A stretch of DNA of 64,000 nucleotides from Natronorubrum halalkaliphilum (GTDB lineage Archaea > Halobacteriota > Halobacteria > Halobacteriales > Natrialbaceae), in the NCBI RefSeq assembly GCF_009834785.1, contig NZ_WUYX01000015.1, positions 124,001 through 188,000 of the forward strand. The letters run 5' to 3'. The notes under the pieces were generated by a model. That model was not told the origin of the DNA and searched no databases. It saw only the letters and a program-made list of their open reading frames with translations. A program made the translations under genes and the position numbers. The first letter of the stretch is position 1, and the number at the start of each line of letters is the position of its first letter. Positions 14,921 through 31,745 of the stretch are shown piece after piece.

Positions 14921-16207
14921 ATGACTACGACACCACCGACACAGGAGACTGAACCGGAGGACGAACTCGACTCGGCGCTCGTCACCGCCCGCCGCCAACT
15001 CGAGCGCGCGGCGACCCACGTCGACGTCGACCCCGGCGTCGTCACGCGACTCAAACACCCGACTCGCGTCGAGCAGGTCTCGGTCCCGCTCGAACGCGAA
15101 GACGGCTCGGTCGAGGTCTTTACGGGCTACCGAGCCCAGCACGACGACGTCCGCGGACCGTACAAGGGCGGCCTTCGATTCCACCCCGAGGTGACCGCCG
15201 AGGAGTGTACCGGCCTCTCGATGTGGATGACCTGGAAGTGTGCCGTGATGGATCTCCCCTTCGGCGGCGGGAAAGGCGGCATCGCCGTCGATCCGAAGTC
15301 GCTGACCGACGACGAGACCGAACGACTCACCCGTCGGTTCGCCGAGGAACTGCGCGACGTCGTCGGGCCGACGAAGGACGTTCCGGCGCCCGACATGGGC
15401 ACCGACGCCCAGACGATGGCCTGGTTCATGGACGCCTACTCGATGCAACAGGGCGAGACCATCCCCGGCGTCGTCACCGGCAAACCGCCCGTCGTCGGCG
15501 GCTCCTACGGCCGCGAGGAGGCTCCCGGTCGATCGACCGCCATCGCCGCGCGGGAAGCCGTCGACTACTACGACCGCGACCTGTCGGAGACGACCGTCGC
15601 CGTCCAGGGATTCGGCAGCGTCGGCGCCAACGCGGCCCGCCTGCTCGAGGACTGGGGCGCGACGATCGTCGCCGTCTCGGACGTCAACGGCGCGCTCTAC
15701 GATCCCGACGGGCTCGACACCCACGCCGTTCCGACCCACGAGGAAGAGCCCGAGGCCGTCCTCGAGCACGGCGCTCCCGAGACGATCTCCAACGAGGACG
15801 TGCTCGAACTCGACGTCGACGTGCTGATCCCGGCCGCCGTCGGGAACGTGATTACCGCGGACAACGCGGACGCCATCGCGGCCGACATCGTCGTCGAGGG
15901 GGCGAACGGCCCGACGACGTTCGCCGCGGATACGATCCTCGACGAACGCGGCGTCCACGTCATTCCGGACATCCTCGCCAACGCCGGCGGCGTGACGGTC
16001 AGCTACTTCGAGTGGCTCCAGGACATCAATCGTCGACAATGGAGCCTCGAACGCGTCAACGAGGAACTCGAGGAACACATGCTCGAGGCCTGGGCGGACG
16101 TCCGCGACGAGGTCGAGGCGAAGGACTTGACCTGGCGCGATGCGGCCTACGTGGTCGCGCTCTCGCGGATCGCGGAGGCGAAGGCGACGCGCGGACTCTG
16201 GCCGTAG
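14921..16207 (+). CDS. gdh: Glutamate dehydrogenase (Glu/Leu/Phe/Val family)
   Basis: 428 residues, normal for hexameric glutamate dehydrogenases. The N-terminal domain has the substrate-binding [10 protein letters not shown] and the catalytic PFGGGKGG block; the Rossmann domain has [14 protein letters not shown]. It interconverts glutamate with 2-oxoglutarate and ammonia. Lying 24 bp behind doeA it is probably co-transcribed, and its likely job here is to regenerate 2-oxoglutarate and release ammonium from glutamate formed when the island's aminotransferases act on diaminobutyrate. NAD versus NADP preference cannot be told with confidence. The gene is very G+C-rich, like the rest of the chromosome. 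Confidence 0.88.
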
Positions 16208-16456: not shown

Positions 16457-19400
16457 CTACTCCGCCGTCAGCGCCGCGGAAACCTTCTCGATCGGATGCG
16501 GCGGCTCACCACAGCCGTCGTATTCCGACAGCTGTGACCGACAGGACGCACCGGGTGCAACCACGGTCTCGCCGTCGCTCCCCTCGACCTGATCGACCAG
16601 CACGTCCCCGATCTTCCGGCTCAGCGAGTAGTGTTCTGCCTCGTAGCCGAACGACCCGGCCATCCCACAGCAGCCCGAATCGAGCGCGTCGACCTCGTAA
16701 CCGACCGCCTCGAGCACCGTCGCCGCGTGGCCGTCCTTCTTGGTGGCCTTCTGGTGGCAGTGACCGTGGTAGGTGAGTCGTTCCTCGAGTCCGCCGCTTC
16801 CGGTGGGCAGTCCGTCGGCCAGACCGAACTGATCGAGGTACTCCATGACGCCGTAGGTGTTCGCCGCGACGAGTTCGACGTCGGGACCCGAGAGCAGGTC
16901 CAGATAATCCGACTGAAACATCACGGCGTCGGAGGGCTCGACGAGCACGACCTCCCAGCCGTCCCCGAGTTCGGGCGCCAGCGCGTCGACGTTCGTTCGG
17001 GCGCGCTCTCGCGAGCGGTCGAGAAAGCCCTTCGAGTGGGCCGGTCGGCCGGTCGAGGTCACGTTTTCGGGAATCTGTACGTGGACACCTGCGGTCTCGA
17101 GAACCTGCACGGCCGCCTTCCCCGCCCGCGGGTGGTTGTAATTCGTGTACGTGTCGGGGAACAGCAAGACCTTCCGGTCGGCCTCCTCGAGCGGGACTCG
17201 AGGCCCTCGCTTTGCGAACCAGTCCTCGAAACTCTCCCCGGCGAACGTCGGCAGGTCGCGCTCGCGAGCGATGCCGATCGTTTTCTCGGCGATGAACCCG
17301 GAGCCGGGCAGCGACGCGGCCCAGTTCGAGATCGGCGCGAGCGCGGAGCCGACCGCGTTGAGTCGATCGACGTTCGCGAACAGTTTGTCCCGGAGACTCG
17401 AGCCGTTCTCCCGATGGTTGGCGTGCTCGACTTCGGCCTTGAGCTTCGCCATGTCGACCTCGCTGGGACAGTCCCGCGCACACCCCTTGCAGCCGATACA
17501 GAGGTCCATGATCTCCGCCAGGAACTCCTCGTCGGTGGCCTCGGTGTCAAGTTCGCCGTTCATCGTGCTTCGCAACATGTTCGCCCGGCCGCGGGTGCTC
17601 AGGCTCTCCTCTTCGGCCGCCCGAAAGGTCGGACACATGACGCCGCCGGTGGTCTCCTGATCGCCCCGACAGCCGCCACAGCCGTGACAGAGTTCGACCA
17701 TGCCCTGAAAGCCGTTCTCGTTGTCCCAGTTTAGGTCCGGGTCGAAGCCCGCCTCGAACTCGTAGTCGGGATCGAACCGGAGGTGCTCGATCATGTCGTG
17801 GTCGCCACAGACGTTGCCCGGATTCAGGAGCCAGTCCGGGTCGAAGACCGTCTTGAGGTCCCGGAACAGCTCCCAAACTTCGTCGCCGTAGAGCTTGTGG
17901 TTCCACTGGGTTCGGGCGCGGCCGTCGCCGTGCTCGCCCGACACCGAACCGCCGTACTCGACGACGAGATCGGTGACGTCGTCCGCGAGCGATTCGAACG
18001 CCTCGAGTCCCGCCGCGCTCTTGGTGTCGACCAGCGGCCGCATGTGCATACAGCCCGGTCCCGCGTGGGCGTAGAAGCTGGCGAACGTGTCGTACTCCTC
18101 GAGAACTGCCTGAAAGTCCGCGACGTAGTCCGCGAGGTTCTCGGTCGGGACGGCCGTGTCCTCGATGAAGGAGATGTGTTTGGCGTCCGACGTCCGAGAC
18201 AGGAGGATCGGTGCCGCGCTCTTCCGGAGTTTCCAGAGTTCGGCGATCCCCTCGGGGTCGTGGGCCTCGAGGGCGTCGAAGGCACGGACGGGATCAGGAT
18301 CGTAATCGGTGTCGCCGACAGCGTCAGCGGCGTCGCCCGCCGCTGCGGTCACGTTCCCCTCCTCGTCTGCATCCCCAGCGTCGGCCGTCGGGTCCGGTAC
18401 GTCCTCGTCGGGCAACCGATCGGCCAACAGGTCCGCGACCTGCTCGCGGCCGTGGTCGTCGTCCTCGGCGTAGAACTCGACGAGTAGCGCCGTCTCGGTG
18501 CCCGCGGGGAGCCGTTCGGCCACGGGCGCGAACTCCTCCGTGTTTTCCGCGAGTTCGATCAGCACGTCGTCGATGGCTTCGACCGCCGCCGGATCGTGGT
18601 TCCGGACGATGGTGTCGACGTCGGCCATCGCCTCGAGCAGGTCGTGATAGGTCAGCAACGCCACGGCCGTCGTTTCGGGGACCGACTCGAGCGAGACGGT
18701 CGCTTCCGTCACGACGCCCAGCGTTCCCTCGCTGCCGGCGAAGACACGGGCGAGGCTGACCGTCGCGTCGGGGTCGGGATCGGAGTCGTCGTCGATCGTG
18801 ACCCTGTCGTCGGTGTTCTCGTCGAAGGCGTCCGGATCACCGTAGGCTTCCGCGACCAGTCGATCCAGATTGTAGCCCGAGACGTTGCGCTTCAGTTGCG
18901 GGAAGACCTCGCCGATCGCCGCCGCTTCCTCGTCGATCACGCGGCGGAGCGCCTCGTAGATACGCTCGAGCAGGTCGCCGTCCGGATCCGCCGTCTCGCG
19001 AAGCTCTTCGACCGTCATCTCGCCGAACCGTTCGACGGAGCCGTCGGCGAGGACGACCTCGCAAGCCTCGACGTAGGCGTCGGTTTTCCCGTACTGCAGG
19101 GAGTGGGCACCCGTCGAATTGTTCCCGATCGCGCCGCCGACGGTACTTCGGTTGCCGGCCGCCGGATCGGGAGCGAACTTCAGATCATGGGGCGCAAGTT
19201 CGTCGTTCAGGTCGGCGAGCACGGTGCCCGCCTGGACGGTCGCCCGCCGTTCGTCGGGATCGACGGAAACCAGGTCGCCCATATGCGTCGTGAAGTCGAG
19301 GACGACGGCCTCGTTGACCGCCTGGCCGGCGAGGCTGGTGCCCCCGCCGCGGGGGAGCACCGGAATTTCGTGTTCGGCGCAGTACTCGACGACGCTCGCG

Positions 19401-19699
19401 ACGTCCGCCGTCGACCGCGGGAGGACGACGCCGATTGGCGTCATCTCGTAGGCGCTGGCGTCGGTCGCATACAGCCGGCAGGAGTACTCGTCGAAGCGAA
19501 CCTCACCGTCGATCCGCTCCCGGAGCGCCGCGACGAGGTCCGACCGGGCGACGTCGCCGCCGACGTAGTCGTAGTCTGCCCGCGCGTCCGCCGCGGGATC
19601 TCCTTCGCGCGGGTCGTCCGGCGGCCCCAGATCGGTCTCCTCCGGGGTCGACGTCTGGTCGCTGTGGTCCGTCGTGGATCCTGAGTGTTCGGTGGCCAT
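16457..19699 (-). CDS. FAD/Fe-S D-2-hydroxyacid (D-lactate) dehydrogenase, GlcD-GlpC fusion
   Basis: 1080 residues. The N-terminal half is an FAD-binding PCMH-type domain (GGGTSLAGQAV, then FAPDPA with GGAIGNNSTG) followed by the FAD-oxidase C-terminal domain (YAHAGPGCMHMRP and GEHGDGR). The C-terminal half carries Fe-S binding: CHGCGGC (about residue 675), CIGCKGCARDCP (about 738) and a cysteine-rich CCG-type domain ending SGCCGMAGSFG (about 1012). Such fusions oxidise D-lactate or other D-2-hydroxyacids to 2-oxoacids and pass electrons to the quinone pool at the inner membrane face. The next gene upstream, a D-2-hydroxyacid dehydrogenase, is 3 bp away and clearly co-transcribed. The low-complexity Asp/Ala insert near residues 435-470 is unusual. 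The true substrate in this cluster is not known. Confidence 0.82.
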   Translation of the reverse strand: MATEHSGSTTDHSDQTSTPEETDLGPPDDPREGDPAADARADYDYVGGDVARSDLVAALRERIDGEVRFDEYSCRLYATDASAYEMTPIGVVLPRSTADVASVVEYCAEHEIPVLPRGGGTSLAGQAVNEAVVLDFTTHMGDLVSVDPDERRATVQAGTVLADLNDELAPHDLKFAPDPAAGNRSTVGGAIGNNSTGAHSLQYGKTDAYVEACEVVLADGSVERFGEMTVEELRETADPDGDLLERIYEALRRVIDEEAAAIGEVFPQLKRNVSGYNLDRLVAEAYGDPDAFDENTDDRVTIDDDSDPDPDATVSLARVFAGSEGTLGVVTEATVSLESVPETTAVALLTYHDLLEAMADVDTIVRNHDPAAVEAIDDVLIELAENTEEFAPVAERLPAGTETALLVEFYAEDDDHGREQVADLLADRLPDEDVPDPTADAGDADEEGNVTAAAGDAADAVGDTDYDPDPVRAFDALEAHDPEGIAELWKLRKSAAPILLSRTSDAKHISFIEDTAVPTENLADYVADFQAVLEEYDTFASFYAHAGPGCMHMRPLVDTKSAAGLEAFESLADDVTDLVVEYGGSVSGEHGDGRARTQWNHKLYGDEVWELFRDLKTVFDPDWLLNPGNVCGDHDMIEHLRFDPDYEFEAGFDPDLNWDNENGFQGMVELCHGCGGCRGDQETTGGVMCPTFRAAEEESLSTRGRANMLRSTMNGELDTEATDEEFLAEIMDLCIGCKGCARDCPSEVDMAKLKAEVEHANHRENGSSLRDKLFANVDRLNAVGSALAPISNWAASLPGSGFIAEKTIGIARERDLPTFAGESFEDWFAKRGPRVPLEEADRKVLLFPDTYTNYNHPRAGKAAVQVLETAGVHVQIPENVTSTGRPAHSKGFLDRSRERARTNVDALAPELGDGWEVVLVEPSDAVMFQSDYLDLLSGPDVELVAANTYGVMEYLDQFGLADGLPTGSGGLEERLTYHGHCHQKATKKDGHAATVLEAVGYEVDALDSGCCGMAGSFGYEAEHYSLSRKIGDVLVDQVEGSDGETVVAPGASCRSQLSEYDGCGEPPHPIEKVSAALTAE

Positions 19700-19702
19700 C
19701 GC

Positions 19703-20680
19703 TTAGCTCGACTCGGGCTGATAGACGGCGTTTTCGAGATCCTCACCCTCGCCGGCCTCGAGCGCCGCGACGTTGTTCGCGACGATATCGGCGAGCCGAT
19801 CCCAGTGTTTCGGCGTGTGGCCGCCCGTGTGGGGCGTGATGAGGCAGTTCTCGAGATCCCAGAGCTCGTGATCGTTCGGCAACGGCTCGGGGTCGGTAAC
19901 GTCGAGTGCCGCACCCCGAATGCCGTTGAACTGGAGCGCCGAGACCAGCGCGTCGGTGTCGACGATCCCGCCGCGGGCCGCGTTAACGAGCACCGCGTTC
20001 GGCGGGAGCGTGGCCAGCGCGTCTTCGTCGACGAGGTTTCGCGTTAGATCGTTCAACGGGCACGCGAGCACGACGTACTCACTCCGGGAGAAGGCCTCGT
20101 GGATATCGTCCTCGTCGAAGCTCAGCACCTCGTCGGTCGGGCCGCCCTTCGACGGCGTGTAACGGATCCCGATCGTCTCGACATCGAAGCCCTCGAGGCG
20201 CGTTACGATCTCCTGACCGATCGAGCCGAGGCCGACGACCGTAACGGTGCTGTCGGTGAACTCGTGTGACTGGAAGTGACGCCACTCGCCGTTCGATTTG
20301 CGCCGCCAGCCCTCGTGGAGATTCCGTGCGAAGACGAGCATGTTGGCGATCGACTGCTCGGCGATGCCGGGGGCGTGAATACCGCCGGCGTTGGTGACGG
20401 CGACGCCGTGGTCCGCCAGCGCGTCCATCGGAACGTGGTCGGTCCCGGCGAACGTACACGCGAACAGTTCGAGTCGATCCGCGCGCTCGAGGAGGTCTTC
20501 CTCGATCGTGATCCCCGTCACGATCCGGGCTTGTGGAACGAGTTCGCGTTCTTCTGCCGGCGTTCGCGCGAGCGCGACGGTGTGGTTCGGCAGCCGTTCG
20601 CGAAGCGTCTCGGCGTACGATTCCATCGATAATCCTTCCGTCCCCTCCCGCAAAACGACGACGTCTGGGTTCGTACTCAT
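19703..20680 (-). CDS. NAD-dependent D-2-hydroxyacid dehydrogenase
   Basis: 325 residues. Rossmann motif GLGSIG in the middle, then NAARGG with the substrate-binding Arg, DPEPLP with the catalytic Glu region, and PHTGGHT with the catalytic His, all standard for the D-isomer-specific 2-hydroxyacid dehydrogenase family. It reduces a 2-oxoacid, or oxidises a D-2-hydroxyacid, with NAD(P)H. It is the first gene of a two-gene minus-strand operon with the FAD/Fe-S oxidase, so the pair could shuttle electrons from NADH to quinone by way of a hydroxyacid, or process an intermediate of the catabolic island. It is divergent from the M20 amidohydrolase across a 128 bp region carrying TGTGTA motifs. Confidence 0.85.
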   Translation of the reverse strand: MSTNPDVVVLREGTEGLSMESYAETLRERLPNHTVALARTPAEERELVPQARIVTGITIEEDLLERADRLELFACTFAGTDHVPMDALADHGVAVTNAGGIHAPGIAEQSIANMLVFARNLHEGWRRKSNGEWRHFQSHEFTDSTVTVVGLGSIGQEIVTRLEGFDVETIGIRYTPSKGGPTDEVLSFDEDDIHEAFSRSEYVVLACPLNDLTRNLVDEDALATLPPNAVLVNAARGGIVDTDALVSALQFNGIRGAALDVTDPEPLPNDHELWDLENCLITPHTGGHTPKHWDRLADIVANNVAALEAGEGEDLENAVYQPESS

Positions 20681-20808: not shown

Positions 20809-22134
20809 ATGAACGAGCCGATACGGGACCGCCTCGTCAGCCTCCGACGGAGTCTGCACCGCCACCCCGAGCCCGCGTGGCGCGAGTTCTACACCACCGC
20901 CCGCATCGTCGAGGAAATTCGTGCCATCGGCGTCGACGAACTCGCCGTCGGCCCGGACGCCTACGATCCCGCCGATCGAATGGCCGTCCCCGATGGCGAC
21001 CTCGAGCCGTGGGTCCGGCGCGCCCGCGACCGCGGCGCGGACGACGGACTGCTCGAGCGGATGACCGGCGGCAACACCGGCGCGGTCGCGGTCCTCGAGC
21101 GGGGCGAGGGGCCGGCGATCGGGCTCCGGGTCGACATCGACGGGCTGTTCATCGAAGAGTCGGCCGACGAGACCCACGATCCGGTCGCCGAGGGCTTTCG
21201 ATCCCAGATCGACGGCACGATGCACGCCTGCGGCCACGACGTCCACATGACCTGGGGCTTGGCCGTCCTCGAGGCCATCAAGGAGAGCGATTTCTCCGGC
21301 CGACTCGTCGTCTTTTTCCAGCCCGCCGAGGAGACCAGCGGCGGCGGCTGTCCGATGGCGAAAAGCGATTTCGCGGCCGATCTGGACTACCTGCTCGCGG
21401 TCCACGTCGGCCTCGACCATCCGACGGGCGAAGTGGTGGCCGGGATCGAAAAGCCCCTCGCGATGTGCCACGTCGACGCGACGATCGAGGGGACTTCGGC
21501 ACACGCCGGAAAGGCCCCGAACGAGGGCGATAACGCCATGCACGCCATGGGGACGGCGATCGAGAACGCGTACGGAATCCCGCGACACAGCGACGGGATG
21601 ACCCGGGTCAATATCGGGTACGCGGAGGCCGGCTCCGCGAGCAACGTCATCGCCGAACGCGCCCACATGGAGGCCGAAGCGCGGGGGGAGACGACCGAAC
21701 TGATGGAGTACATGAAGAACCGATTGAAACGAACCGTTCGATCGGCGGCGACGATGCACGGCTGTCGCGCCGACGTCGACGTCGTCAGCGAGTCGCCGCG
21801 GGCGGACAGCGACCCCGAACTGCAGGCGCTCGTCAGCGAGGTCGCGACCGACGTGCCGGGAATCGAGCGGGTGCTGCCGGCCGCCGACTTCGGCGCGAGC
21901 GAGGACGCGACCTTCCTGATGGATCGCGTCCAACAGGACGGCGGACTGGCGACCTACCTGATCGTCGGCACCGACCACCCCACCAGCCACCACACGCCGA
22001 CGTTCGACGTGGACGAGGACAGCCTCGAGCACGGGGTCGACGTCCTCGTCGAGTCGATCAGGGAACTCGAGCACCGGCATCCGGTTCCCCGCGCGGAAGC
22101 CGAGGACGGGGCGCACGCGGAGGTCGATGGATGA
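20809..22134 (+). CDS. M20 family amidohydrolase, putative N-acetyl-diaminobutyrate deacetylase (copy 1)
   Basis: 441 residues. M20D metal-ligand motifs are intact: MHACGHDVH, QPAEE, HVGLDHP and the late TDHPTSHHTP. The protein resembles AbgA/indole-acetyl-amino-acid hydrolases, which cleave N-acyl amino acids with two zinc or manganese ions. The ATG at 20809 is preferred to the GTG at 20800 because the TATA element predicts a transcript start just before it, and because the N-terminus then lines up exactly with the paralogue ending at 28461. Its stop overlaps the start of the threonine-dehydratase-like gene by 4 bp, implying translational coupling. By context it is my candidate for the deacetylase step after DoeA; other N-acyl substrates remain possible. 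Confidence 0.75.
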   Translation: MNEPIRDRLVSLRRSLHRHPEPAWREFYTTARIVEEIRAIGVDELAVGPDAYDPADRMAVPDGDLEPWVRRARDRGADDGLLERMTGGNTGAVAVLERGEGPAIGLRVDIDGLFIEESADETHDPVAEGFRSQIDGTMHACGHDVHMTWGLAVLEAIKESDFSGRLVVFFQPAEETSGGGCPMAKSDFAADLDYLLAVHVGLDHPTGEVVAGIEKPLAMCHVDATIEGTSAHAGKAPNEGDNAMHAMGTAIENAYGIPRHSDGMTRVNIGYAEAGSASNVIAERAHMEAEARGETTELMEYMKNRLKRTVRSAATMHGCRADVDVVSESPRADSDPELQALVSEVATDVPGIERVLPAADFGASEDATFLMDRVQQDGGLATYLIVGTDHPTSHHTPTFDVDEDSLEHGVDVLVESIRELEHRHPVPRAEAEDGAHAEVDG

Positions 22135-23387
22135 GCCGGGATCGAACCGACGACGAGGGCCTCGTCACGCTCGCGGACGTCGAGAACGCCCGGGAGCGGA
22201 TCGACGAGGTCGTTCATCGCACGCCCCTCGACACCTCGAGTACGTTCGCCGAACTGAGCGGCGCCGACTCCGTCGGTCTCAAACTCGAGACCGTCCAGCG
22301 GACGGGCTCGTTCAAGATCCGCGGGGCGTACAACAAGATGGCACAGCTGTCCGACGCGGAGCGCGAGGCGGGCGTCATCTCCTCGAGCGCGGGCAACCAC
22401 GCTCAGGGCGTCGCACTGGCCGGGCAACTGCTCGATATCGACACGACCATCGTCGTCCCCGAGGTGACGCCCGCCGCGAAAATCGAGGCGACTCGAGGGT
22501 ACGGCGCCGACGTCGTCGTCGAGGGCGACATCTACGAACGCTCCTACGAGTACGCCCTCGAGCGGGCCGAGGAGAGCGGCGAGACGTTCGTCCATCCCTT
22601 CGACAATCCGGCGATTATCGCCGGCCAGGGGACGATCGGGCTCGAGATGCTCGAGCAGTACCCTGAACTCGATACCGTCCTCGTCGCCATCGGCGGCGGG
22701 GGGCTCATCTCGGGTATCGGAACGGTGCTGAAGGCCCACGATCCGGATATTCGAGTCGTTGGGGTACAGCCGGAGGGTGCCGCCCACGCGAAACCGTCCC
22801 TCGAGGCCGGTGAGATCCGCGAACTCGAGACCGTCGACACCGTCGCGGAGGGCATCGCCGATACCAGGATGCTCGAAACGACCTTCGCGAACGCCCGCGA
22901 GGTCGTCGACGACGCCGTGAGCGTCACGGATACGGAGATCGCGACGGCCGTGACGTTGCTCGCCGAGCGGGCGAAAACGGTGGCGGAAAGTGCGGGGGCC
23001 GCGCCGCTGGCCGCTGCGCTAGCAGACGACGTCGACCTGGATCTCGAGGGCGAGCGCGTCGGCGTCGTGATCTCCGGCGGGAACGTCAACCTCACCGAGC
23101 ACGCGGAACTGACCCGGACCGGCCTGCACGAACTCGAGCGCTACGCCGAGGCGAGGCTGGCCGTCGCCGGGTGGCCGACAACGGTGGGCGAGGTGGCCGA
23201 CACCGTCGAATCCGAAGGCGCCGAACTCGACGTCCTCGAGCGGGCGCGCCGAACGAATCGCGACGAGCCGAATCGGGTTCCCGTTACTGTCGGGCTCGAG
23301 GGCAGCGGGCGAGAGCATCTCGAGGGCGTGCTCGATGCGCTTGAGGGGCTCGAGGGGGTTTCGGTGGTCGTACGCTCGCTCGAGTAA
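22131..23387 (+). CDS. Threonine-dehydratase-like PLP enzyme with ACT-like tail
   Basis: 418 residues. Fold type II PLP enzyme: Lys62 in TGSFKIRGA is the Schiff-base lysine, SSSAGNHAQG binds the substrate carboxylate, and GGGGLISG binds PLP phosphate. A C-terminal ~80 residues look like an ACT regulatory domain, as in biosynthetic or catabolic threonine ammonia-lyases. The 4 bp overlap with the M20 gene shows it belongs to the same operon and probably to the same pathway. In bacterial hydroxyectoine clusters a dehydratase of this superfamily, EutB, is present; this protein is longer and closer in pattern to IlvA/TdcB, so I do not call it eutB. A role on beta-hydroxy-diaminobutyrate is a hypothesis. 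Confidence 0.82.
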   Translation: MSRDRTDDEGLVTLADVENARERIDEVVHRTPLDTSSTFAELSGADSVGLKLETVQRTGSFKIRGAYNKMAQLSDAEREAGVISSSAGNHAQGVALAGQLLDIDTTIVVPEVTPAAKIEATRGYGADVVVEGDIYERSYEYALERAEESGETFVHPFDNPAIIAGQGTIGLEMLEQYPELDTVLVAIGGGGLISGIGTVLKAHDPDIRVVGVQPEGAAHAKPSLEAGEIRELETVDTVAEGIADTRMLETTFANAREVVDDAVSVTDTEIATAVTLLAERAKTVAESAGAAPLAAALADDVDLDLEGERVGVVISGGNVNLTEHAELTRTGLHELERYAEARLAVAGWPTTVGEVADTVESEGAELDVLERARRTNRDEPNRVPVTVGLEGSGREHLEGVLDALEGLEGVSVVVRSLE

Positions 23388-23403
23388 CGACTCGAGCACA
23401 CTG

Positions 23404-23518
23404 CTGGCGCGCTGGACCGCGACGAACGCAAGTGAGGCGCGGTTCGAATGCGTGAGGTCATCGCGAACGGAATGAGTGAATCGACTGGTGAGGGCGAGGA
23501 ATCCCGAGGTGCCAGCGT
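23404..23518 (+). repeat. GC-rich degenerate intergenic repeat, copy C (diverged)
   Basis: Begins just after the dehydratase stop with TGGCGCGCTGGACCGCG, then GAACGCAAGTGAGGCGCG, a GGAATGAGTGA block and ends near GAGGTGCCAGCG. The blocks are in the same order as in copy A, and it faces copy B as an imperfect inverted repeat within one convergent intergenic region. Confidence 0.45.
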
Positions 23519-23602
23519 GAGTAGCAGATCCTTCAGGTATTACAGACGGCAGATCGGTTCTCAATAACCAATACCCCTCAAACGAGCAAGACCTCTTAAA
23601 TC

Positions 23603-23791
23603 GCGGCAACTAGGGTATCCACGTCCTCCCCACCCGATTCGTTCGCTTCGTTCAGGCGCTCACTCATCCCTCGCGCAGGTTCGGACCCCGGTTCACTCGG
23701 CTCACGGTTCCCGCTGGTCACCGTTCGCTTTTCGAGGCACTCCCGATGGTCGCGCCTCGCTTTCGTTCACCGCGGCCCAGCGCGCGCCACC
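23603..23791 (-). repeat. GC-rich degenerate intergenic repeat, copy B
   Basis: Read on the minus strand it starts GTGGCGCGCGCTGG, contains GCGCGAGGGATGAG, then GAACGAATCGG and ends ACCCTAGTTGCCGC, the same order as copy A at 16251-16370. It fills the gap between the convergent dehydratase and aminotransferase genes (23388-23857) together with copy C. No coding frame of normal composition is present in this 470-base gap. Confidence 0.5.
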
Positions 23792-23857
23792 GTACGTGGG
23801 CAACTTGGCGCTGGAGAGACATTAAAACCGAAACCCGAGGAGAAAAACGAATCCCGA

Positions 23858-25219
23858 TTAGGCGGCTTTCACGCTCGCACCGGCCGCTTCGATCGCCTCG
23901 AGGAAGATCCCGATTCCCAGTTCGATCTCGCGCTCGCTCGAGTCAAGCGGCGGGAGGAGACGGATCGTCTTCTTGCCACAGCCGAGCGTCAACAGGCCGC
24001 GCTTCAGTGATTCCTGCACCACGGCCGTCCGCCGTTCGGGCGTATCGAAGGTGACCGCGAGCATCAGCCCCTTGCCGCGGACGTCCTCGACGTGATCGGG
24101 CGCGTCGTCCCGGAGCAGTTCCTTCGCTTGCTCGCCGCGCTGGGTTGCGTTTTCGAGCAGGTCGTACTCCTGAATGGCCTCGAGCGTGAACGTGCCCATC
24201 ATCGAGCCGAGCAGGTCGCCGCCGCCGAAGGTCGAACCGAGTCGGTTCTTCTCGCCGGGGAAAATTTCGGATCGCGAAATCGTCGCGCCGACGCGCAAGG
24301 CCTTCGCGCTGGCGATGACGTCGGGTTCGATCGGGTAGTGATCGGACGCCCAGATCTCACCGGTGCGGCCCACGCCGGCCTGAATCTCGTCGACGACCAG
24401 CGGAATATCGTACTCGTCGGTGACGTCCGCAATCTCCTGCATGAACGCTTCGCTGGGGAACCGGTAGCCGCCGACGCCCTGGATCGGCTCGAGGGTCACG
24501 AATGCGACCTCGTCGGGGTTGATGTGGCCGCCCTCGGGCGACAGCGAGTTCCGAAGCTGCGAACCGGCGCCGGTGAAGAAACCGCAGTCGCAGGTGCTCG
24601 CGTCACAGCCCCGGTCGGCGCAGAACGGCACCGTCTCGATGCCGCTGATTTCGGGGTAGTGTCGCGTGTAGACCTCCTTCGATTTCGTGATCGAGAGGGT
24701 GCCGAACGTGCGGCCGTGGAAACTGCCCGAAAACGCCACGCCGTACTTCGACGGCGCTCGGTAGTCGTGGCTGATCTTCATCGCGTTCTCCATGGCCTCC
24801 GCGCCGGAGTTCGAGAGGAAGACGGTGTCCATCCCGTACTGACTCGAGACGTCGGTCAGTTTTTCCATGAGGTGACTCGAGCCCGGGACGTCCGATTCCT
24901 CGGGGGAGGGGCCGGCGCCAAAGTACATGTCTTGGCCGGCGATTTTCATCGGTTCGACGAGGTCGAACTCCCGAAGCTTTCCGGTTACTTTCTCGTTGTT
25001 GTAGCCGAGCGGTGCCGCACCGATGTGGCACGTAAAGTCCAGCAACACGTTTCCGTCGACGTCGGTAACGAACGGCCCGTCGGCCTCGCGGGTGATGTCC
25101 CAGACGAACTCGTGTGAGTACTCGCTCGGTGCCGCGTTCGCCCCGTGGTACTCGACCCACTGCTGGGCGTTGGGCCCGGGGAATGTGCCCACGTCCGGTC
25201 GCGCGGTATCCCTATCCAT
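23858..25219 (-). CDS. Class III PLP aminotransferase of the ectoine island (copy 1)
   Basis: 453 residues. Features of omega/class III aminotransferases: NSGAEAMENAMK (phosphate loop), GSFHGRTFG, LVVDEIQAGVGRTG (the cofactor-binding Asp) and Lys306 in SAKALRVG, the Schiff-base lysine, followed by STFGGGD. It transfers an amino group, probably to 2-oxoglutarate; likely substrates are diaminobutyrate, 4-aminobutyrate or another omega-amino acid. Odd feature: a cysteine-rich insertion CADRGCDASTCDCG about residues 199-212, which could bind a metal. The promoter has a perfect inverted repeat overlapping the start codon. It is co-directional with, and downstream of, the BCCT transporter. Confidence 0.8.
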   Translation of the reverse strand: MDRDTARPDVGTFPGPNAQQWVEYHGANAAPSEYSHEFVWDITREADGPFVTDVDGNVLLDFTCHIGAAPLGYNNEKVTGKLREFDLVEPMKIAGQDMYFGAGPSPEESDVPGSSHLMEKLTDVSSQYGMDTVFLSNSGAEAMENAMKISHDYRAPSKYGVAFSGSFHGRTFGTLSITKSKEVYTRHYPEISGIETVPFCADRGCDASTCDCGFFTGAGSQLRNSLSPEGGHINPDEVAFVTLEPIQGVGGYRFPSEAFMQEIADVTDEYDIPLVVDEIQAGVGRTGEIWASDHYPIEPDVIASAKALRVGATISRSEIFPGEKNRLGSTFGGGDLLGSMMGTFTLEAIQEYDLLENATQRGEQAKELLRDDAPDHVEDVRGKGLMLAVTFDTPERRTAVVQESLKRGLLTLGCGKKTIRLLPPLDSSEREIELGIGIFLEAIEAAGASVKAA

Positions 25220-25250
25220 ACACAGATTATGTGTACGTCATCATTAAATC
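25217..25250 (-). promoter_or_regulatory. Leaderless promoter with TACACA-N5-TGTGTA operator
   Basis: A perfect inverted repeat TACACA-GATTA-TGTGTA occupies 25219-25235 and overlaps the start codon of the aminotransferase (25219-25217). A TATA-like TTTAATGA lies at 25241-25248 on the minus strand, about 25 bp before the start codon, so the transcript should be leaderless and the repeat sits between TATA box and transcript start. A protein bound here would block transcription. Confidence 0.6.
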
Positions 25251-25468
25251 TTGTTGTAGGTAGGCACGATGGTCGCAGAATCGGGACCGATAACGAGCGA
25301 ACACGCACCATGAACGAGCGGGGCAGCGGATAGCCGAAAGCGACAGCGCCGCCGGAGAACACGGATGAAGACGAGAAGAGGATCTGACTCGTACGGACGG
25401 CTGTACGTCGTTTCCGGCGCAATCACGACCGTTTCGCGATTGCGCGGTAAATCGTTACAGCACCCGAA

Positions 25469-27133
25469 TCAGTCGTCGTCGCCTGGTTCGACGGTCGGCG
25501 ACGGATCGTCACTGGATTGTTCCGGAGTGGAACCGAACAGCACCGTCTTCTCCTGGAGCAACACGCGACCTCGCGTGCCGCTGAAGTCCTTGACCAGGCA
25601 GAGCAAGGCCAGGAAGCAGACGATCGCGAACGGTGCGCCAGTGATCACGACTGCCTGCTGGAGTGCGCCAGTACCCTGATCGCCGCCGAGGATCATGAGG
25701 ATCGCGGCGGTCATGCCGAGGACGACGCCCCAGAAGATTCGGTTAATGTTCGACGGCCGTTCCTTTCCGCCGGTGGTCATCATCGAGACGGCGAGCGTCG
25801 AGGAGTCGGCCGACGTGATGAAGAACGTCGTGACGAGAACCAGGAACCCGAGTATCAGTACCGACCCGATCGGGATCGAAACCCCGGCGATCGAGAGCGA
25901 CAGCGCATCGAACAGGATGAAGCCGGAGACTTCCGCACCGGCTTCGCCCGCCATCACCGCGCTGAAGTCGGCAACGCCCTCGTGCTGGGCCCACACTGCG
26001 GTACCGCCGACGAACGTGAACCACGGAATGGTCGCCGCCGACGTCGCGATGATGCCGGTAAACGCGACCTCGCGGACGGTTCGCCCCTTGGAGATACGGG
26101 CGATGAACAGGCCCGCGAACGGCGACCACGAGAGCGCCCACGCCCAGTAGAAGACGGTCCAGGCCTCGACCCAGCCGGTGCCACCCTCGCCGGCACCGGT
26201 GTAGAGGCTCATCGAGACGAAGTCGCCGATCATGCCACCCATCGCCTGGGAACCGAGCAACAGGAGCAACATCGTCGGACCCGCTATGAACGTGATAACC
26301 ATGAGCGCGACGAACAGGCCCATGTTGAAGTTCGAAAGCCGACGAATCCCCTTGTCGATCCCGAGCACCATCGAGATGGTAAAGAGAATCGTCATCCCCG
26401 TTACCACGATGAGAATGCCGGTGTTACCCAGATCGATTCCCCACTGGTAGTTGAGTCCGCTGACGAACTGACTCCCGATGAATCCCAGCGACGTTGCGAC
26501 GCCGCCGATCGTCGCGAACACGGCGAGGATGTCGATTACCTTTGCGGCCGTTCCGTCGAGGTTATCCTTTCCGAGCAGCGGCGTGAGCGCCGAAGACACC
26601 CGCAGCGGGACCTTGTCGTAGTTGTACGCGAAGTAGCCGATCGCGATTCCCATGATGGTAAACACCGCGAGCTGGGGCAGCGCCCAGTGGAACAGCGTTT
26701 GCTGAATCGCGAGCGGAATCGCGGCACCCGATTCAGCTTCGGCACCGAACAGCGGGTTCGGATCCGCGTAATAGAACAGCCCCTCGGTCGGTCCCCAGAA
26801 CACGACACCCGCAGCGAACCCTGCGGAGTACAGCATCGCGAAAAATGACAGGAAGCTGTACTCCGGATCCTCGTCGCCGAGTTTGATCTTCCCCCACGGC
26901 CCGACGATCAGGAACAGGAGGAAGACGACGATCAGGAACACGATCACCAGCAGCGCCCAGCTCATGTAGCTGAGCATCTCGCCGTGAACGGTATCGATGC
27001 CGCTGGCGACGAAGTCCTGGTCGACAAAGAACGCGACGATCACTCCCACCGACAGCAACGCACCGAAGGCGAAAATGACCGGATCGATCTCGTCGAAGAA
27101 CCGACCAACCGCTCCCTTCTCGTTGCCGCTCAT
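25469..27133 (-). CDS. BCCT-family transporter (betaine/ectoine-type)
   Basis: 554 residues with about 12 membrane helices. BCCT signatures: GVATSLGFIGSQF in the middle, then TVFYWAWALSWSPFAGLFIARISKGR, which covers the family signature helix. Members take up glycine betaine, choline, carnitine, ectoine or proline with Na+ or H+. A position usually occupied by Trp-Trp (WAWW) reads WAWAL here, so substrate selectivity may differ. Near the end a polar acidic tail follows the last helix. Placed between the two aminotransferase/amidohydrolase groups of the island, it is the likely ectoine importer. A TATA-like element at 27244-27253 and a half-operator at 27271-27282 lie upstream. Confidence 0.83.
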   Translation of the reverse strand: MSGNEKGAVGRFFDEIDPVIFAFGALLSVGVIVAFFVDQDFVASGIDTVHGEMLSYMSWALLVIVFLIVVFLLFLIVGPWGKIKLGDEDPEYSFLSFFAMLYSAGFAAGVVFWGPTEGLFYYADPNPLFGAEAESGAAIPLAIQQTLFHWALPQLAVFTIMGIAIGYFAYNYDKVPLRVSSALTPLLGKDNLDGTAAKVIDILAVFATIGGVATSLGFIGSQFVSGLNYQWGIDLGNTGILIVVTGMTILFTISMVLGIDKGIRRLSNFNMGLFVALMVITFIAGPTMLLLLLGSQAMGGMIGDFVSMSLYTGAGEGGTGWVEAWTVFYWAWALSWSPFAGLFIARISKGRTVREVAFTGIIATSAATIPWFTFVGGTAVWAQHEGVADFSAVMAGEAGAEVSGFILFDALSLSIAGVSIPIGSVLILGFLVLVTTFFITSADSSTLAVSMMTTGGKERPSNINRIFWGVVLGMTAAILMILGGDQGTGALQQAVVITGAPFAIVCFLALLCLVKDFSGTRGRVLLQEKTVLFGSTPEQSSDDPSPTVEPGDDD

Positions 27134-27617
27134 GCGCTACCACCCTTCGCGCCCCGACATTCAGTTACTGTTTGCACACGTCTCCCCCGTGTTGCATCTA
27201 CCATGCTTCGCGATAGCATACCGAACCAATTGTCAGTATCCCGCATAAATATTTCCTTTTTGTACCCGATATACACAGATTACGTTTATTGGTTGGACCG
27301 GTTCTCGAGAGGCTAAACACTATACGAAAGTGCCTAAATGACTCTGAGGACCCTCTATAATTATAATAGCATAACCTATATCCCGATAATAATAACATAC
27401 GGAGATTCTCACACAGTGTGTTCCACGCTGACCGAATCTGGCGGTGAGCGTGCCGGGTCATATACTGTAGTCACCCGATCGGGAAGGACAGAGCGAGCAG
27501 TCGCACGCACTGTGGCCTAGATAACGTTCGTGACCGACACGAAGCCGGCAAATTTATCGTGAAAGTGATTTCGAGGCAGCAGTTGGTCGGCCGGCGAAAA
27601 CGATTTCTGAAACGGAG
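27134..27617. promoter_or_regulatory. A+T-rich region upstream of the BCCT gene
   Basis: 484 bases without a credible gene, markedly richer in A+T between 27240 and 27400 than the surroundings. On the minus strand a TATA-like CATAAATATT (plus-strand 27244-27253) would give a leader of about 90 bases for the transporter. ATACACAGATTA at 27271-27282 is identical to the left half and spacer of the operator at 25219-25235; the right half here is CGTTTA instead of TGTGTA. Open frames in the region have no normal composition. Confidence 0.45.
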
Positions 27618-28265
27618 TCAGTTCGTCAGTTCCTCGAGTTTCCGGTCGCGAGCCTCGGCGCTCTCGGTAACGCGCTCGGAGAATTCGTCGACGCGGTCTT
27701 TGATCTCCTCGCGGGTCCCCTCGGGTGAGAAGCTATCCGACATCGTCAGGAGTCGAACGAACGCTCGGAGTTCCTCGTCGGTCAACTGGGCGAACTCCTC
27801 GTTCTCGAGTTTCTCGATGACTTCGTCGACGTCGATCTGACCGACCGGATCGACGTTGAACTCGACGTTGACCATCCGGTAGTTCGAACCGGCGAGTCGC
27901 TGTTCGGCCTTGCCGACGCCCTCGGAGAGCATCTCTTTGAACGGCGTGTGATACCCCATCGTACCGAGATGCAAGAACGCGAGCATATCCGTGATCCCTT
28001 GCGTGTAGGCGTCTCGATCCTCGTCGTCCGGATCGAACACCGTCTCCCGGTCCCGTTCCTCGAGGTACTCGAAAAGAATGCTGAAGTCGAGGACCGCGTT
28101 CCGCACCCGCCGCCGGATCCGGTTTCGCTTTTGCTTTTTCGAGTGGTCGGTGTAGTCCGTCTTCCGTCCGAGCAGGAAGTCGCGGTCGGAGGGCGTAAGA
28201 ATTCCGCGCGGGCGATCCGAGTCCGCCGCCGTTCGAAGCGACTCCGGCACGTCGTCCTGACTCAT
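27618..28265 (-). CDS. Conserved haloarchaeal protein, unknown function
   Basis: 215 residues from MSQDD (ATG at 28265; an in-frame start 9 bases upstream is possible). Acidic, helix-rich, with a basic patch KKQKRNRIRRRVR (about residues 42-54) and alternating charged segments toward the C-terminus that may form a coiled coil. No signal peptide or membrane helix, and no known motif. Proteins of this kind are frequent in haloarchaea as stand-alone hypothetical genes, so its position inside the catabolic island may be incidental. Confidence 0.65.
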   Translation of the reverse strand: MSQDDVPESLRTAADSDRPRGILTPSDRDFLLGRKTDYTDHSKKQKRNRIRRRVRNAVLDFSILFEYLEERDRETVFDPDDEDRDAYTQGITDMLAFLHLGTMGYHTPFKEMLSEGVGKAEQRLAGSNYRMVNVEFNVDPVGQIDVDEVIEKLENEEFAQLTDEELRAFVRLLTMSDSFSPEGTREEIKDRVDEFSERVTESAEARDRKLEELTN

Positions 28266-28460
28266 ACACAACACACGGTGGGCCCGCGAATTAATCCTTC
28301 TGATCTATCGAACACGGCAATTATCGTACATCTTGTCGATCGGCAACCCCTTCGACGTCCGCCCGACTCGGCTGTGTCTCCCCGCTGAAACGAATCGAGA
28401 CACACAGCACAACCGGGGGTGTTGCGGACTCGAGAACTGAACGCGACCACACCGACCCCG

Positions 28461-29741
28461 TTACGGTCGCCGTCTAGAACACTCGAGAATGGCGTCTGTG
28501 ATGACCGAGACGCCGATCTCGAGACTGCTCTCGTCGATATCGAACGTCGGCGTGTGGTGGTTCGTCGGGTGGTCGGAGCCGACGAGCATGTACGAGGCGA
28601 GGCCGCCGCCTTGCTGTACCCGCTCCATCAGGTAGGTGACGTCCTCGCTGACGCCGAACGGCGTCGTCTCGACGATCCGGTCGACGCCGACGGTCTCGCG
28701 TGCGACCGCGGCGACGAGGTTTCGAAGTTCGGGGTCGCTATCCGCCCGCGGCGACTCGCTGATGATTCGGGGCGTGACGTCGCAGTCGTGCATCTCCGCG
28801 GCGGCGTAGAGCACGCGCTCGAGTTCCGTTCGCATGTACTCCATGAGCCCCGTCGTCTCGCCGCGGACTTCAGCTTCGATGGTGATCTCCTCGGCGATGA
28901 CGTTGCTGGCGGTTCCGCCCTCGATATGGCCGATATTGACCCGGGTCATCCCGTCGCTGTGTCGCGGGATCGCGTACGCGTTCTGGATCGCGGTCGCCGA
29001 CGCCTGCATGGCGTTGCCCCCTTCGTTCGGTGCTTTGCCCGCGTGAGCGCTCGCCCCCTCGAACGTGGCCGTTAGGTGCGCCATCGCCAGCGGCTTCTCG
29101 ATCCCGGCGACGATCTCGCCGGACGGGTGATCGAGCCCGATGTGCAGCGCGAACAGGTAGTCAACGTCGTCGACGTACCCTCCTTTGGCCATCGCCTTCC
29201 CGCCGCCCGAAATCTCCTCGGCGGGCTGGAAAAACACCTTGAATGTCCCCGAAAAGTCGCTGTCCTTCACGGCCTCGAGTGTGCCCAGTGCGATTGCGAT
29301 GTGGGCGTCGTGCCCGCAGGCGTGCATGTACCCCTCGTGTTCGGATCGAAAGCCCTCCGCGGCGGGTCGGTGGTCGTCGGCGGACGACTCCTCCATCGAA
29401 ATCGCATCGAGATCGACGCGCAGGCCGACCGTCGGCCCATCGCCCTGTTCGAGCACCGCAACCACGCCGGTGTGCCCGCCGGCGGTCCGCTCGAGGATGT
29501 CCTCCCGAACATCCGCGTCGCGTGCCCGTTCGAACCAGGGCTCGAGTTCCGATTCCGATGGCACGGCCATGCGCTCGTCGGTCGAAAGGGCCTCGCGGCC
29601 GACGGCGATCTCGTCGACGCCGATTTCCTCGAGTTCCGCTACGACTTGCGCCGTCGTCCGGAACTCGCGCCAGCCGGGTTCCGGGAGGCGGTGGAAGATT
29701 CGCCGCACCTCGCTCAATCTGTTCCGAACGTCATAGGCCAT
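28461..29741 (-). CDS. M20 family amidohydrolase, paralogue (copy 2)
   Basis: 426 residues from ATG at 29741; the frame is open further upstream, but a TATA-like TTAAGTACTT (about 29763-29772) puts the transcript start at about this ATG. It is a close paralogue of the enzyme at 20809, sharing LHRxPEP-x-WREF at the start, MHACGHDAH, QPAEE, HIGLDHPSGE, SAHAGKAPNEGGNAM and the late DHPTNHHTPTFD. All metal ligands are intact. The two copies in one island suggest either two substrates, for example acetyl-diaminobutyrate and its hydroxy form, or functional redundancy. It lies 161 bp behind RidA on the same strand. Confidence 0.75.
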   Translation of the reverse strand: MAYDVRNRLSEVRRIFHRLPEPGWREFRTTAQVVAELEEIGVDEIAVGREALSTDERMAVPSESELEPWFERARDADVREDILERTAGGHTGVVAVLEQGDGPTVGLRVDLDAISMEESSADDHRPAAEGFRSEHEGYMHACGHDAHIAIALGTLEAVKDSDFSGTFKVFFQPAEEISGGGKAMAKGGYVDDVDYLFALHIGLDHPSGEIVAGIEKPLAMAHLTATFEGASAHAGKAPNEGGNAMQASATAIQNAYAIPRHSDGMTRVNIGHIEGGTASNVIAEEITIEAEVRGETTGLMEYMRTELERVLYAAAEMHDCDVTPRIISESPRADSDPELRNLVAAVARETVGVDRIVETTPFGVSEDVTYLMERVQQGGGLASYMLVGSDHPTNHHTPTFDIDESSLEIGVSVITDAILECSRRRP

Positions 29742-29902
29742 TCTTGCCGGTTGTAAGCGCGGGAAGTACTTAACCGTGGTCGAAAATCGTATACCGTCTA
29801 CGCGAGTTCGATTGAAGCAGCGATGTGGGAGCCTCGCGAGGCTCGCGGGTGACACCGATCAGCACACAAACGACGGCGACGAGGGCCGTCCGCCGGGAAC
29901 GT

Positions 29903-30292
29903 TCAACCGAGATACGCCGTCGCGTCCATCTCGACGCGAACGTCTTCCGGCAGCCGCGAGACCTCGACACAGACGCGCGCCGGTGGCTCCGCGCCGAACT
30001 GCTCGCCGTAGGCCTCGTTGACGCGCTCATAGTCCTCGAGGTCGGTCAGGTAGACCGTGACCTTGACCACGTCGTCGAGGCCGTCGCCGCCGGCTTCGTC
30101 GACGACAGCGGCGATGTTCTCGAGGACCCGAACCGTCTGGTCCTGGACGTCGCCGTCGGCTTCCTCGCCTGTCTCCGGATCGACGGGGCCGTAGCCGGAG
30201 ACGTACAGCGTATCGCCGGCCCGGACGCCCTGCGAGTAGGGGTTGTCGTTGCTCGGTGCGTCATCGGTTTCGATGGGATCTGTATCGGACAT
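29903..30292 (-). CDS. ridA: RidA family enamine/imine deaminase
   Basis: 129 residues, the usual RidA (YjgF/UK114) length. Family motifs are PYSQGVRAGDTLYVSG near the N-terminus, VVKVTVYLTDLEDY in the middle, and the active-site Arg in PPARVCVEV with VEMDATA at the end. RidA hydrolyses reactive 2-enamine or imine products of PLP dehydratases. Lying between an amidohydrolase and a diaminobutyrate-type aminotransferase, and with a threonine-dehydratase-like enzyme in the same island, it probably protects against enamines made during breakdown of the substrate. The 26 acidic N-terminal residues are typical haloarchaeal. Confidence 0.88.
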   Translation of the reverse strand: MSDTDPIETDDAPSNDNPYSQGVRAGDTLYVSGYGPVDPETGEEADGDVQDQTVRVLENIAAVVDEAGGDGLDDVVKVTVYLTDLEDYERVNEAYGEQFGAEPPARVCVEVSRLPEDVRVEMDATAYLG

Positions 30293-30371: not shown

Positions 30372-31745
30372 TCAGGCCGTCTGTGCGGTCACGTGCTCGA
30401 TGGCCTCGGCGACGACGTCCAGCGCCGTCTCCGCGAGCTCGTGGGTGAGCACGAGCGGCGGGAGGAATCGCAGGATGTTGCCGTGGCGGCCGGCCGTCCA
30501 GACGAGGACGCCGTGTTCGAAGCAGTACTGTTGGATCGCGTCGACGGTATCGCTGTCGGGCTTCCCGTCGGCGTCGACGAACTCGGCGCCGATGATCAGG
30601 CCCTTACCGCGGATGTCGGCGAGACGGTCGGTCTCCTCGCCCGCTTCCCGGAGCCGTCCCTGAATGTACTCGCCGAGTTCTTTTGCGTGGGCGAGCAGGT
30701 CGTGTTCCTGGATGTACTCGATGGCGCGGGTGCCGGCGCGCATCCCGACGACGTGGCCGCGGTAGGTGCCGGCGTGGTCGCCCGACCCCCACGTATCGAG
30801 TTCCTCCTTGTACATCGTCGCGGAGAGCGGGAAGCCGACGCCGCCGAGGGCTTTCGCGGAGGTCATCACGTCCGGCGTGACGCCCTCCCAGTCGCTGGCC
30901 CACCACTCGCCGGTGCGGCCGAGGCCACTCTGGATCTCGTCGAAGACGAGCGTGACGTCGTTGTCGGTGGCGATGTCACGCAGCCCCTGCAGGAAGCCCT
31001 CCGGCGGGGTGACGATGCCGCCCTCGCCCTGGATCGGTTCGACGATGATTCCGGCCGGATTCGCGAGACCGCCGTAGGGATCCTCGACGATGGCCTGGAC
31101 CTCCTCTAAGGCGTGATCGACGGCCTCCTGTGGCGCTTTGTCCTGTCGGAACGGGTGCGGGTACGGCGCGTGGACGACGTCGGAAAGGAGCGGCGTGTAG
31201 TGACCCTTGAACTTCTTGTTCGAGGTGACGCTCATCGCGCCGGTCGTCGCCCCGTGGTAGGCGCCGCGGAACGCGATGAGACCGTCGCCGCCCGTGTTGT
31301 ACTTGGCGAGCTTGATCGACGCTTCGATGGCGTCGCTACCCGTCGGGCCGCCGAACACGACCCGGTTGTTGCCCTGCATGCCCGCCGGCGCGATTTCGTC
31401 GAGTTTCTCGATCAACTCGAGTCGCGCTTCGGTCGGGAAGTCGACCGTGTGGACGAACTTGTCGGCCTGTTCGTGAACCGCCTCCAGAACGTAGGGGTTC
31501 GAGTGGCCGACGTTGAGCACGCCGATGCCGGCGAACATGTCGATGTAGGTGTTGCCGTCCGCGTCGCGGACCGTCGCTCCCTTCCCCTCCTCGAACGCGA
31601 TCGGGATGTCGTTGGGGTAGGCGACCGCGCTGCTGTCGATCTCCGTCTGTTTCTCGAGCAGGGCGCGGGTGTTGGGCCCGGGTACGGAGTCGACGTTCGG
31701 TGCGTCATCGAAGTGAATGTCGTCGATCGGCGGTCCTGCCGTCAT
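30372..31745 (-). CDS. Diaminobutyrate-type aminotransferase (DoeD candidate)
   Basis: 457 residues. Class III aminotransferase with the pattern of diaminobutyrate:2-oxoglutarate aminotransferases: [12 protein letters not shown] at the start, [70 protein letters not shown] and Lys298 in SAKALGG, the PLP lysine. It should convert L-2,4-diaminobutyrate to aspartate semialdehyde, with 2-oxoglutarate becoming glutamate. This is the DoeD step of ectoine breakdown; the reverse direction is used by EctB in synthesis, but no ectA or ectC is in the window, which favours catabolism. It is the first of several co-directional minus-strand genes and is divergent from proline dehydrogenase. Confidence 0.82.

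Follow-up and report, generated by a model that had tools for sequence, protein, structure and literature searches.

Which enzyme removes the acetyl group when a haloarchaeon degrades ectoine? The question is raised by a gene cluster of Natronorubrum halalkaliphilum, found in a 64,000-nucleotide stretch of its 4.56 Mb draft genome (contig NZ_WUYX01000015.1, positions 124,001 to 188,000; this whole haloarchaeal stretch is called the window below). The classical route of ectoine degradation runs DoeA-DoeB-DoeD-DoeC (PMC5924519, PMC7192451, PMC3187862), with DoeB, also called EutE, as the deacetylase. The ectoine-type cluster, which spans 13.7-31.7 kb of the window, has a homologue of doeA/eutD and two amidohydrolase genes of the M20 family, M20A and M20B. 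An earlier note on this DNA had stated that the window holds no AstE/AspA-type gene, which is correct, and had proposed that M20 enzymes replace DoeB/EutE non-orthologously. As a prediction of activity, this is the best reading of the evidence set out here: DoeB orthologues were absent from every haloarchaeal genome searched and M20A tracks doeA, and we put at roughly 60% the probability that M20A is the non-orthologous DoeB of the haloarchaeal ectoine-utilisation cluster.

DoeB/EutE was sought with its full model, TIGR02994 (curated cut-off 402.7 bits), at E≤1e-15 in 391 haloarchaeal genomes from 86 genera, because the current PF04952 model, which had no match in the source genome, spans only 76 positions. 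Bacterial DoeB proteins from Paracoccus and Klebsiella served as positive controls and scored 590 and 540 bits. None of the 391 genomes had a match above the cut-off, the top score being 128.8 bits; the best match in the source genome reached 100.7 bits, on other contigs, and neither M20A nor M20B matched the model. At the stricter threshold of E≤1e-40, the eutE search matched no genome. The genome-wide search for AstE/AspA homologues proposed in the earlier note thus had a divided outcome. A DoeB orthologue tied to doeA was not found, and remote homologues are nearly universal, occurring in 390 of the 391 genomes irrespective of doeA, so that they do not track it. Three such genes were detected in the source genome at E≤1e-15, the best of which (C39:48961-49845) encodes a remote relative of the solved EutE 6TWM and adjoins a threonine-synthase-like gene.

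The distribution of M20A is quite different. Homologues of doeA, every one listed scoring at least 416 bits, occur in 144 genomes and 41 genera. M20A-type genes, defined by E≤1e-175, were found in 132 genomes, comprising 131 of the 144 with doeA and one of the 247 without it. The position of M20A was mapped in 129 genomes; it lay on the same contig as doeA in 123, at a median distance of 5.4 kb, and in 119 the two genes were no more than 10 kb apart. In a separate collection of 45 named doeA loci, M20A was within 10 kb of doeA at 37, with conserved gene order; among the remaining loci are some at contig ends and some where doeA is on its own. In the window, doeA comes first and M20A follows after a gap of about 6 kb. 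Thirteen doeA-positive genomes have no close M20A, and six of the eight inspected have an M20 gene beside a D-hydroxyacid dehydrogenase gene near doeA (a more divergent M20 in G039, G276, G134, G256 and G104; that of G262 is truncated where the stretch ends), and the other two, G249 and G255, lack one. Because M20A tracks doeA from a few genes away, in the place of DoeB, haloarchaea have probably evolved a deacetylation step of their own.

Both M20 proteins match Pfam PF01546 and PF07687 and exceed the TIGR01891 amidohydrolase cut-off of 153.75 bits (Table 1). The M20D metal ligands C144, H146, E177/E178, H202 and H398 (M20A numbering) are complete in both proteins and, together with the dimerisation-domain residue H235, are invariant in an alignment of M20A, M20B, haloarchaeal paralogues and bacterial AbgA. 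These matches, the invariant motif and 61% identity between M20A and M20B bear out their earlier description as paralogous M20D enzymes with intact ligands. The closest solved protein is the AbgA-like 3IO1 from Klebsiella, annotated as an aminobenzoyl-glutamate utilisation protein (sequence E 2.6e-76). It was also nearest in a fold comparison made with a predicted structure, followed by the N-acylglutamine aminoacylase 6SLF; the AlphaFold model used has a moderate confidence score (pLDDT 79.5), low at residues 115-143 beside the active site. Mean identity to a Providencia AbgA is 36%. The relationship to AbgA is evident in both sequence and fold. The window enzymes share the metal-ligand pattern of 3IO1 and of the AbgA subunit of E. 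coli p-aminobenzoyl-glutamate hydrolase, but their context is ectoine catabolism, unlike the folate catabolite use of AbgA, and an AbgB partner was not recognised in the window cluster, no search having been aimed at AbgB.

The earlier note also named an M20-type enzyme, DoeB2, for the same step. An M20 family of that name does exist (NCBIfam NF038260, cut-off 550 bits), and it comprises M20D amidohydrolases named for the very reaction proposed for M20A. M20A and M20B, however, were rejected as members at 98.7 and 117.1 bits, and nothing in the source genome scored above the cut-off. The window enzymes match CpsA and TIGR01891 models better and form a separate M20D lineage; judged by sequence, they are AbgA-like M20D enzymes whose recruitment was separate from that of DoeB2.

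Ectoine hydrolase (TIGR02993) is by far the best family for the window DoeA, which matches the solved ectoine hydrolase 6TWK at 383 bits and shares 50% identity with Paracoccus yeei DoeA and 56% with a Priestia homologue. The active-site motifs GYDGWSFYVHQ and YPPDWGE are conserved in alignments, as is, in the 6TWK alignment, residue E255 of EutD, which we take to be the catalytic glutamate.

In the proposed pathway, the BCCT transporter would import ectoine and the DoeA homologue would open its ring to give N-alpha-acetyl-diaminobutyrate. M20A would then use its two-metal site, as M20D aminoacylases do, to split off the acetyl group by hydrolysis of the amide, releasing acetate and diaminobutyrate, and a class III aminotransferase would convert diaminobutyrate to aspartate semialdehyde, with glutamate dehydrogenase recycling glutamate. 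On genomic context and family chemistry, N-alpha-acetyl-diaminobutyrate is the most likely substrate of M20A. The enzyme would perform the same step (EC 3.5.1.125) as DoeB/EutE (AstE/AspA fold, solved as 6TWL and 6TWM) and is likewise encoded near a DoeA/EutD homologue, but it belongs to an unrelated protein family. More speculatively, the threonine ammonia-lyase-type pyridoxal phosphate (PLP) enzyme whose gene overlaps M20A and the RidA protein, a dehydratase/imine-deaminase pair, could serve a hydroxyectoine branch. A fuller version of the scheme is tentative: haloarchaea may have evolved a distinct route that took on an AbgA-like M20D in an event separate from the origins of DoeB and DoeB2 (Bacillota taking another, CpsA-like M20), with deacetylation possibly following transamination and M20B acting on a second intermediate, for example a hydroxyectoine derivative.

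The suggestion that duplication had split the substrates between M20A and M20B, acetyl-diaminobutyrate going to one and its hydroxy form to the other, was not borne out. M20B-type genes occur in 81 genomes, all of them among the 144 with doeA; the other 63 have none, and most of these keep M20A. M20B sequences form one clade in the tree (support 100/100), and M20A together with six single-copy cluster M20s forms a second (99/95). Three further cluster M20s fall outside both clades and two more source-genome paralogues (contigs C14 and C50) branch deeper, the root being uncertain because the outgroup branch is long. The existence of single-M20 clusters, which mostly group with M20A, suggests that one M20 is enough. 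Only one position separates the two types at 90% conservation (G153/A189) and ten do so at 80%, among them F117/S153 in the usual M20D active-site loop; as specificity residues these are too weak a basis for claiming that the substrates are split. M20B is an accessory paralogue of M20A, and a division of substrates between the two is possible, with no positive support from these data.

Other explanations of the cluster have to be weighed. N-alpha-acetyl-diaminobutyrate is the one-carbon-shorter homologue of N-acetylornithine, and transamination might come first: an acetylornithine-type aminotransferase would yield N-acetyl-aspartate semialdehyde and then N-acetylaspartate, and the substrate deacetylated by M20A and M20B would be N-acetylaspartate or some N-acyl acidic amino acid related to it. 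This order would fit the best NCBIfam match of both aminotransferases (PRK05769, acetylornithine aminotransferase, under its cut-off), the acyl-acidic-amino-acid hydrolase type of the nearest solved M20 relative (aminobenzoyl-glutamate utilisation), and a cluster that has no DoeC-like dehydrogenase but in several loci has an aldehyde ferredoxin oxidoreductase gene by aminotransferase b. It is nevertheless unlikely, given that characterised bacteria deacetylate before transamination (PMC5924519, PMC7192451) and that aminotransferase b, the closer of the two to DoeD, also gives good scores against diaminobutyrate aminotransferase models. We give little credence to the idea that the deacetylase is the distant AstE/AspA homologue on contig C39, the M20 enzymes breaking down peptides or other acyl-amino acids. 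The source genome does encode three such homologues, including the remote EutE relative, but in haloarchaea at large these genes are present irrespective of doeA and score no more than 129 bits, and the C39 gene sits beside a threonine-synthase-like gene, in contrast to M20A, which tracks doeA. In a further alternative, M20A and M20B are not two enzymes with divided substrates but the two subunits of one hetero-oligomer, as AbgA and AbgB are in the AbgA2AbgB2 tetramer of E. coli p-aminobenzoyl-glutamate hydrolase (PMC5082436). The confinement of M20B to doeA-positive genomes would agree with this, but the 63 doeA-positive genomes without M20B mostly have M20A, and the two proteins are 61% identical with both ligand sets complete, unlike AbgA and AbgB at only 18.9% (PMC5082436), which makes such a complex highly improbable.

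That the cluster degrades some other cyclic or acylated amino acid, to which both the DoeA homologue and M20A are suited, also seems improbable: the window DoeA is 50-56% identical to DoeA homologues whose clusters include eut or ehu genes, no other family comes near ectoine hydrolase in score, and the presumed catalytic glutamate is conserved. In favour of another substrate are the presence of M24 homologues adjoining M20 genes in rhizobia (loci L130 and L131) and two points that also weigh against M20A as the ectoine-pathway deacetylase. The window DoeA, at 475 bits, falls short of the TIGR02993 equivalog cut-off of 613, as do all the haloarchaeal genomes and the Priestia homologue (531 bits), and the open-access literature yielded no biochemical or growth data on archaeal ectoine catabolism. 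Further evidence tells against the assignment. The association of M20A with doeA has a Fisher's p of 1.6e-87, which is only descriptive because related genomes are not independent and no correction for phylogeny was applied. The linkage is not universal, since G249 and G255 (loci L122 and L123) have doeA with no M20 nearby and a number of doeA copies elsewhere are solitary. A D-hydroxyacid dehydrogenase/M20 pair found away from doeA (locus L104) indicates that M20 may have a broader role. Finally, a DoeC-type semialdehyde dehydrogenase is absent from the cluster.

Table 1. Genes of the ectoine-type cluster, in window coordinates
Feature	Coordinates	Strand	Evidence
doeA/eutD homologue (ectoine hydrolase, M24 fold)	13718..14896	+	TIGR02993 475 bits, E 2e-142; longest open reading frame from TTG 13532
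Glutamate dehydrogenase	14921..16207	+	PF00208/PF02812
FAD and Fe-S D-2-hydroxyacid (D-2-hydroxyglutarate/glycolate-type) dehydrogenase	16457..19699	-	NF049975 493 bits, under cut-off
D-2-hydroxyacid dehydrogenase (NAD), divergent to M20A	19703..20680	-	PF02826
M20A, AbgA-like M20D amidohydrolase, candidate N-alpha-acetyl-diaminobutyrate deacetylase	20809..22134	+	TIGR01891 250.5 bits; doeA linkage; metal ligands intact
Threonine ammonia-lyase-type PLP enzyme	22131..23387	+	TIGR01127 391 bits, above cut-off
Class III aminotransferase a	23858..25219	-	PF00202; 26% identity to P. yeei DoeD
BCCT-family transporter, candidate ectoine importer	25469..27133	-	PF02028 E 8e-141
Conserved haloarchaeal protein, function unassigned	27618..28274	-	No significant family match; syntenic in several loci
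M20B, paralogous AbgA-like M20D amidohydrolase	28461..29741	-	TIGR01891 267.8 bits
RidA-family (enamine/imine deaminase) protein, between M20B and aminotransferase b	29903..30292	-	PF01042 E 1.6e-36
Class III aminotransferase b, candidate DoeD	30372..31745	-	PRK06938 diaminobutyrate transaminase 405 bits, under cut-off

The span 20809-29741 runs from the ATG of M20A, for which GTG 20800 is an alternative start, to the likely ATG of M20B, whose open reading frame extends to an upstream GTG (28461-29855). The two M20 genes flank the transporter and aminotransferase a, as had been described, but aminotransferase b lies outside M20B. It is 32% identical to P. yeei DoeD and nearer to diaminobutyrate aminotransferases than aminotransferase a is. 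Two cluster genes were missing from the earlier note, namely the RidA gene beside M20B and the threonine ammonia-lyase-type gene, which overlaps M20A by four bases. The latter is present in 34 of the 45 named loci; its product is 36% identical to Priestia EutB and scores 250-268 bits with EutB models against a cut-off of 413, which places it outside EutB proper, although a EutB-like role is possible on sequence grounds. The NAD-dependent D-2-hydroxyacid dehydrogenase occurs in 38 of the named loci and glutamate dehydrogenase in about two thirds (29/45), while the FAD and Fe-S D-2-hydroxyacid dehydrogenase is an optional member (19/45). The unassigned protein travels with the cluster across several haloarchaeal loci.

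Haloarchaeal doeA loci vary in content. An aldehyde ferredoxin oxidoreductase gene, not recognised in the window, is present in eight of them (e.g., L105 29525-31195, L091 near 7362, L066 near 7729), adjoins aminotransferase b where viewed, and could stand in for the DoeC semialdehyde dehydrogenase. Loci L122 (6035-11729) and L123 (6465-12185) represent a second haloarchaeal type, with BCCT, doeA, cystathionine-gamma-synthase-like and zinc-alcohol-dehydrogenase-like genes and no amidohydrolase recognised nearby. On a Haladaptatus pallidirubidus plasmid (L099 14230-20083), a doeA without M20A adjoins a EutA-like gene of the maleate isomerase family (TIGR02990 111 bits, under cut-off), accompanied by an IclR regulator and an O-acetylhomoserine sulfhydrylase-like gene. 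The pair at L104 (2856-5224, on Natrialba magadii pNMAG02) consists of a divergent D-2-hydroxyacid dehydrogenase and an AbgA-like M20 beside peptidase genes.

Among bacteria, the doeA cluster of Priestia (Bacillota) has a CpsA-like M20D gene (abgB in PMC13188858) near its doeA, and the stretch viewed holds no DoeB. It differs from the window cluster in also having eutB, eutC, a cystathionine-gamma-synthase-like gene, homoserine dehydrogenase and aldehyde dehydrogenase. PMC13188858 surveyed Bacillaceae genomes and reports eutE in none of those it examined. The Priestia M20, only 26-28% identical to the window M20s, was rejected as an M20A orthologue, and given this distance it seems that doeA clusters have acquired M20D enzymes on more than one occasion. 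Priestia also shares with a Klebsiella plasmid doeA cluster, which has a true doeB, a gene of the cystathionine-gamma-synthase family (PRK08249, above cut-off; Klebsiella L132 8222-9400, Priestia L095 14228-15427), with a relative in L122 and L123; its product may have a part in ectoine catabolism that has so far been missed. In rhizobia, a DoeA-superfamily M24 gene lies near an M20 gene on plasmids of Agrobacterium fabrum (L130 2705-9732, together with D-2-hydroxyacid reductase and aminotransferase genes) and Sinorhizobium fredii (L131 3674-7167, where the M20 scores 315 bits with DoeB2, under cut-off).

The haloarchaeal clusters are themselves already published. The main text of PMC13188858 (2026) describes haloarchaeal EutD clusters, evidently the same ones, in which EutD is accompanied by BCCT, an 'aminopeptidase' and aminotransferases, and terms them provisional; it names no deacetylase, gives no co-occurrence and does not separate M20A from M20B. 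No report assigning the haloarchaeal deacetylase was found in the open-access literature. What is new here is accordingly that M20A is pinpointed by co-occurrence and that membership in DoeB and DoeB2 is excluded, which supplies a named candidate for the step that the cluster survey, as far as its main text goes, leaves open. Ectoine is a major compatible solute of saline habitats, and if M20A is the deacetylase, annotation based on DoeB and DoeB2 misses the pathway in more than a third of the sampled haloarchaea (144/391 with doeA). In that case AstE-fold enzymes and more than one M20D lineage would each have come to fill a single metabolic step on their own.

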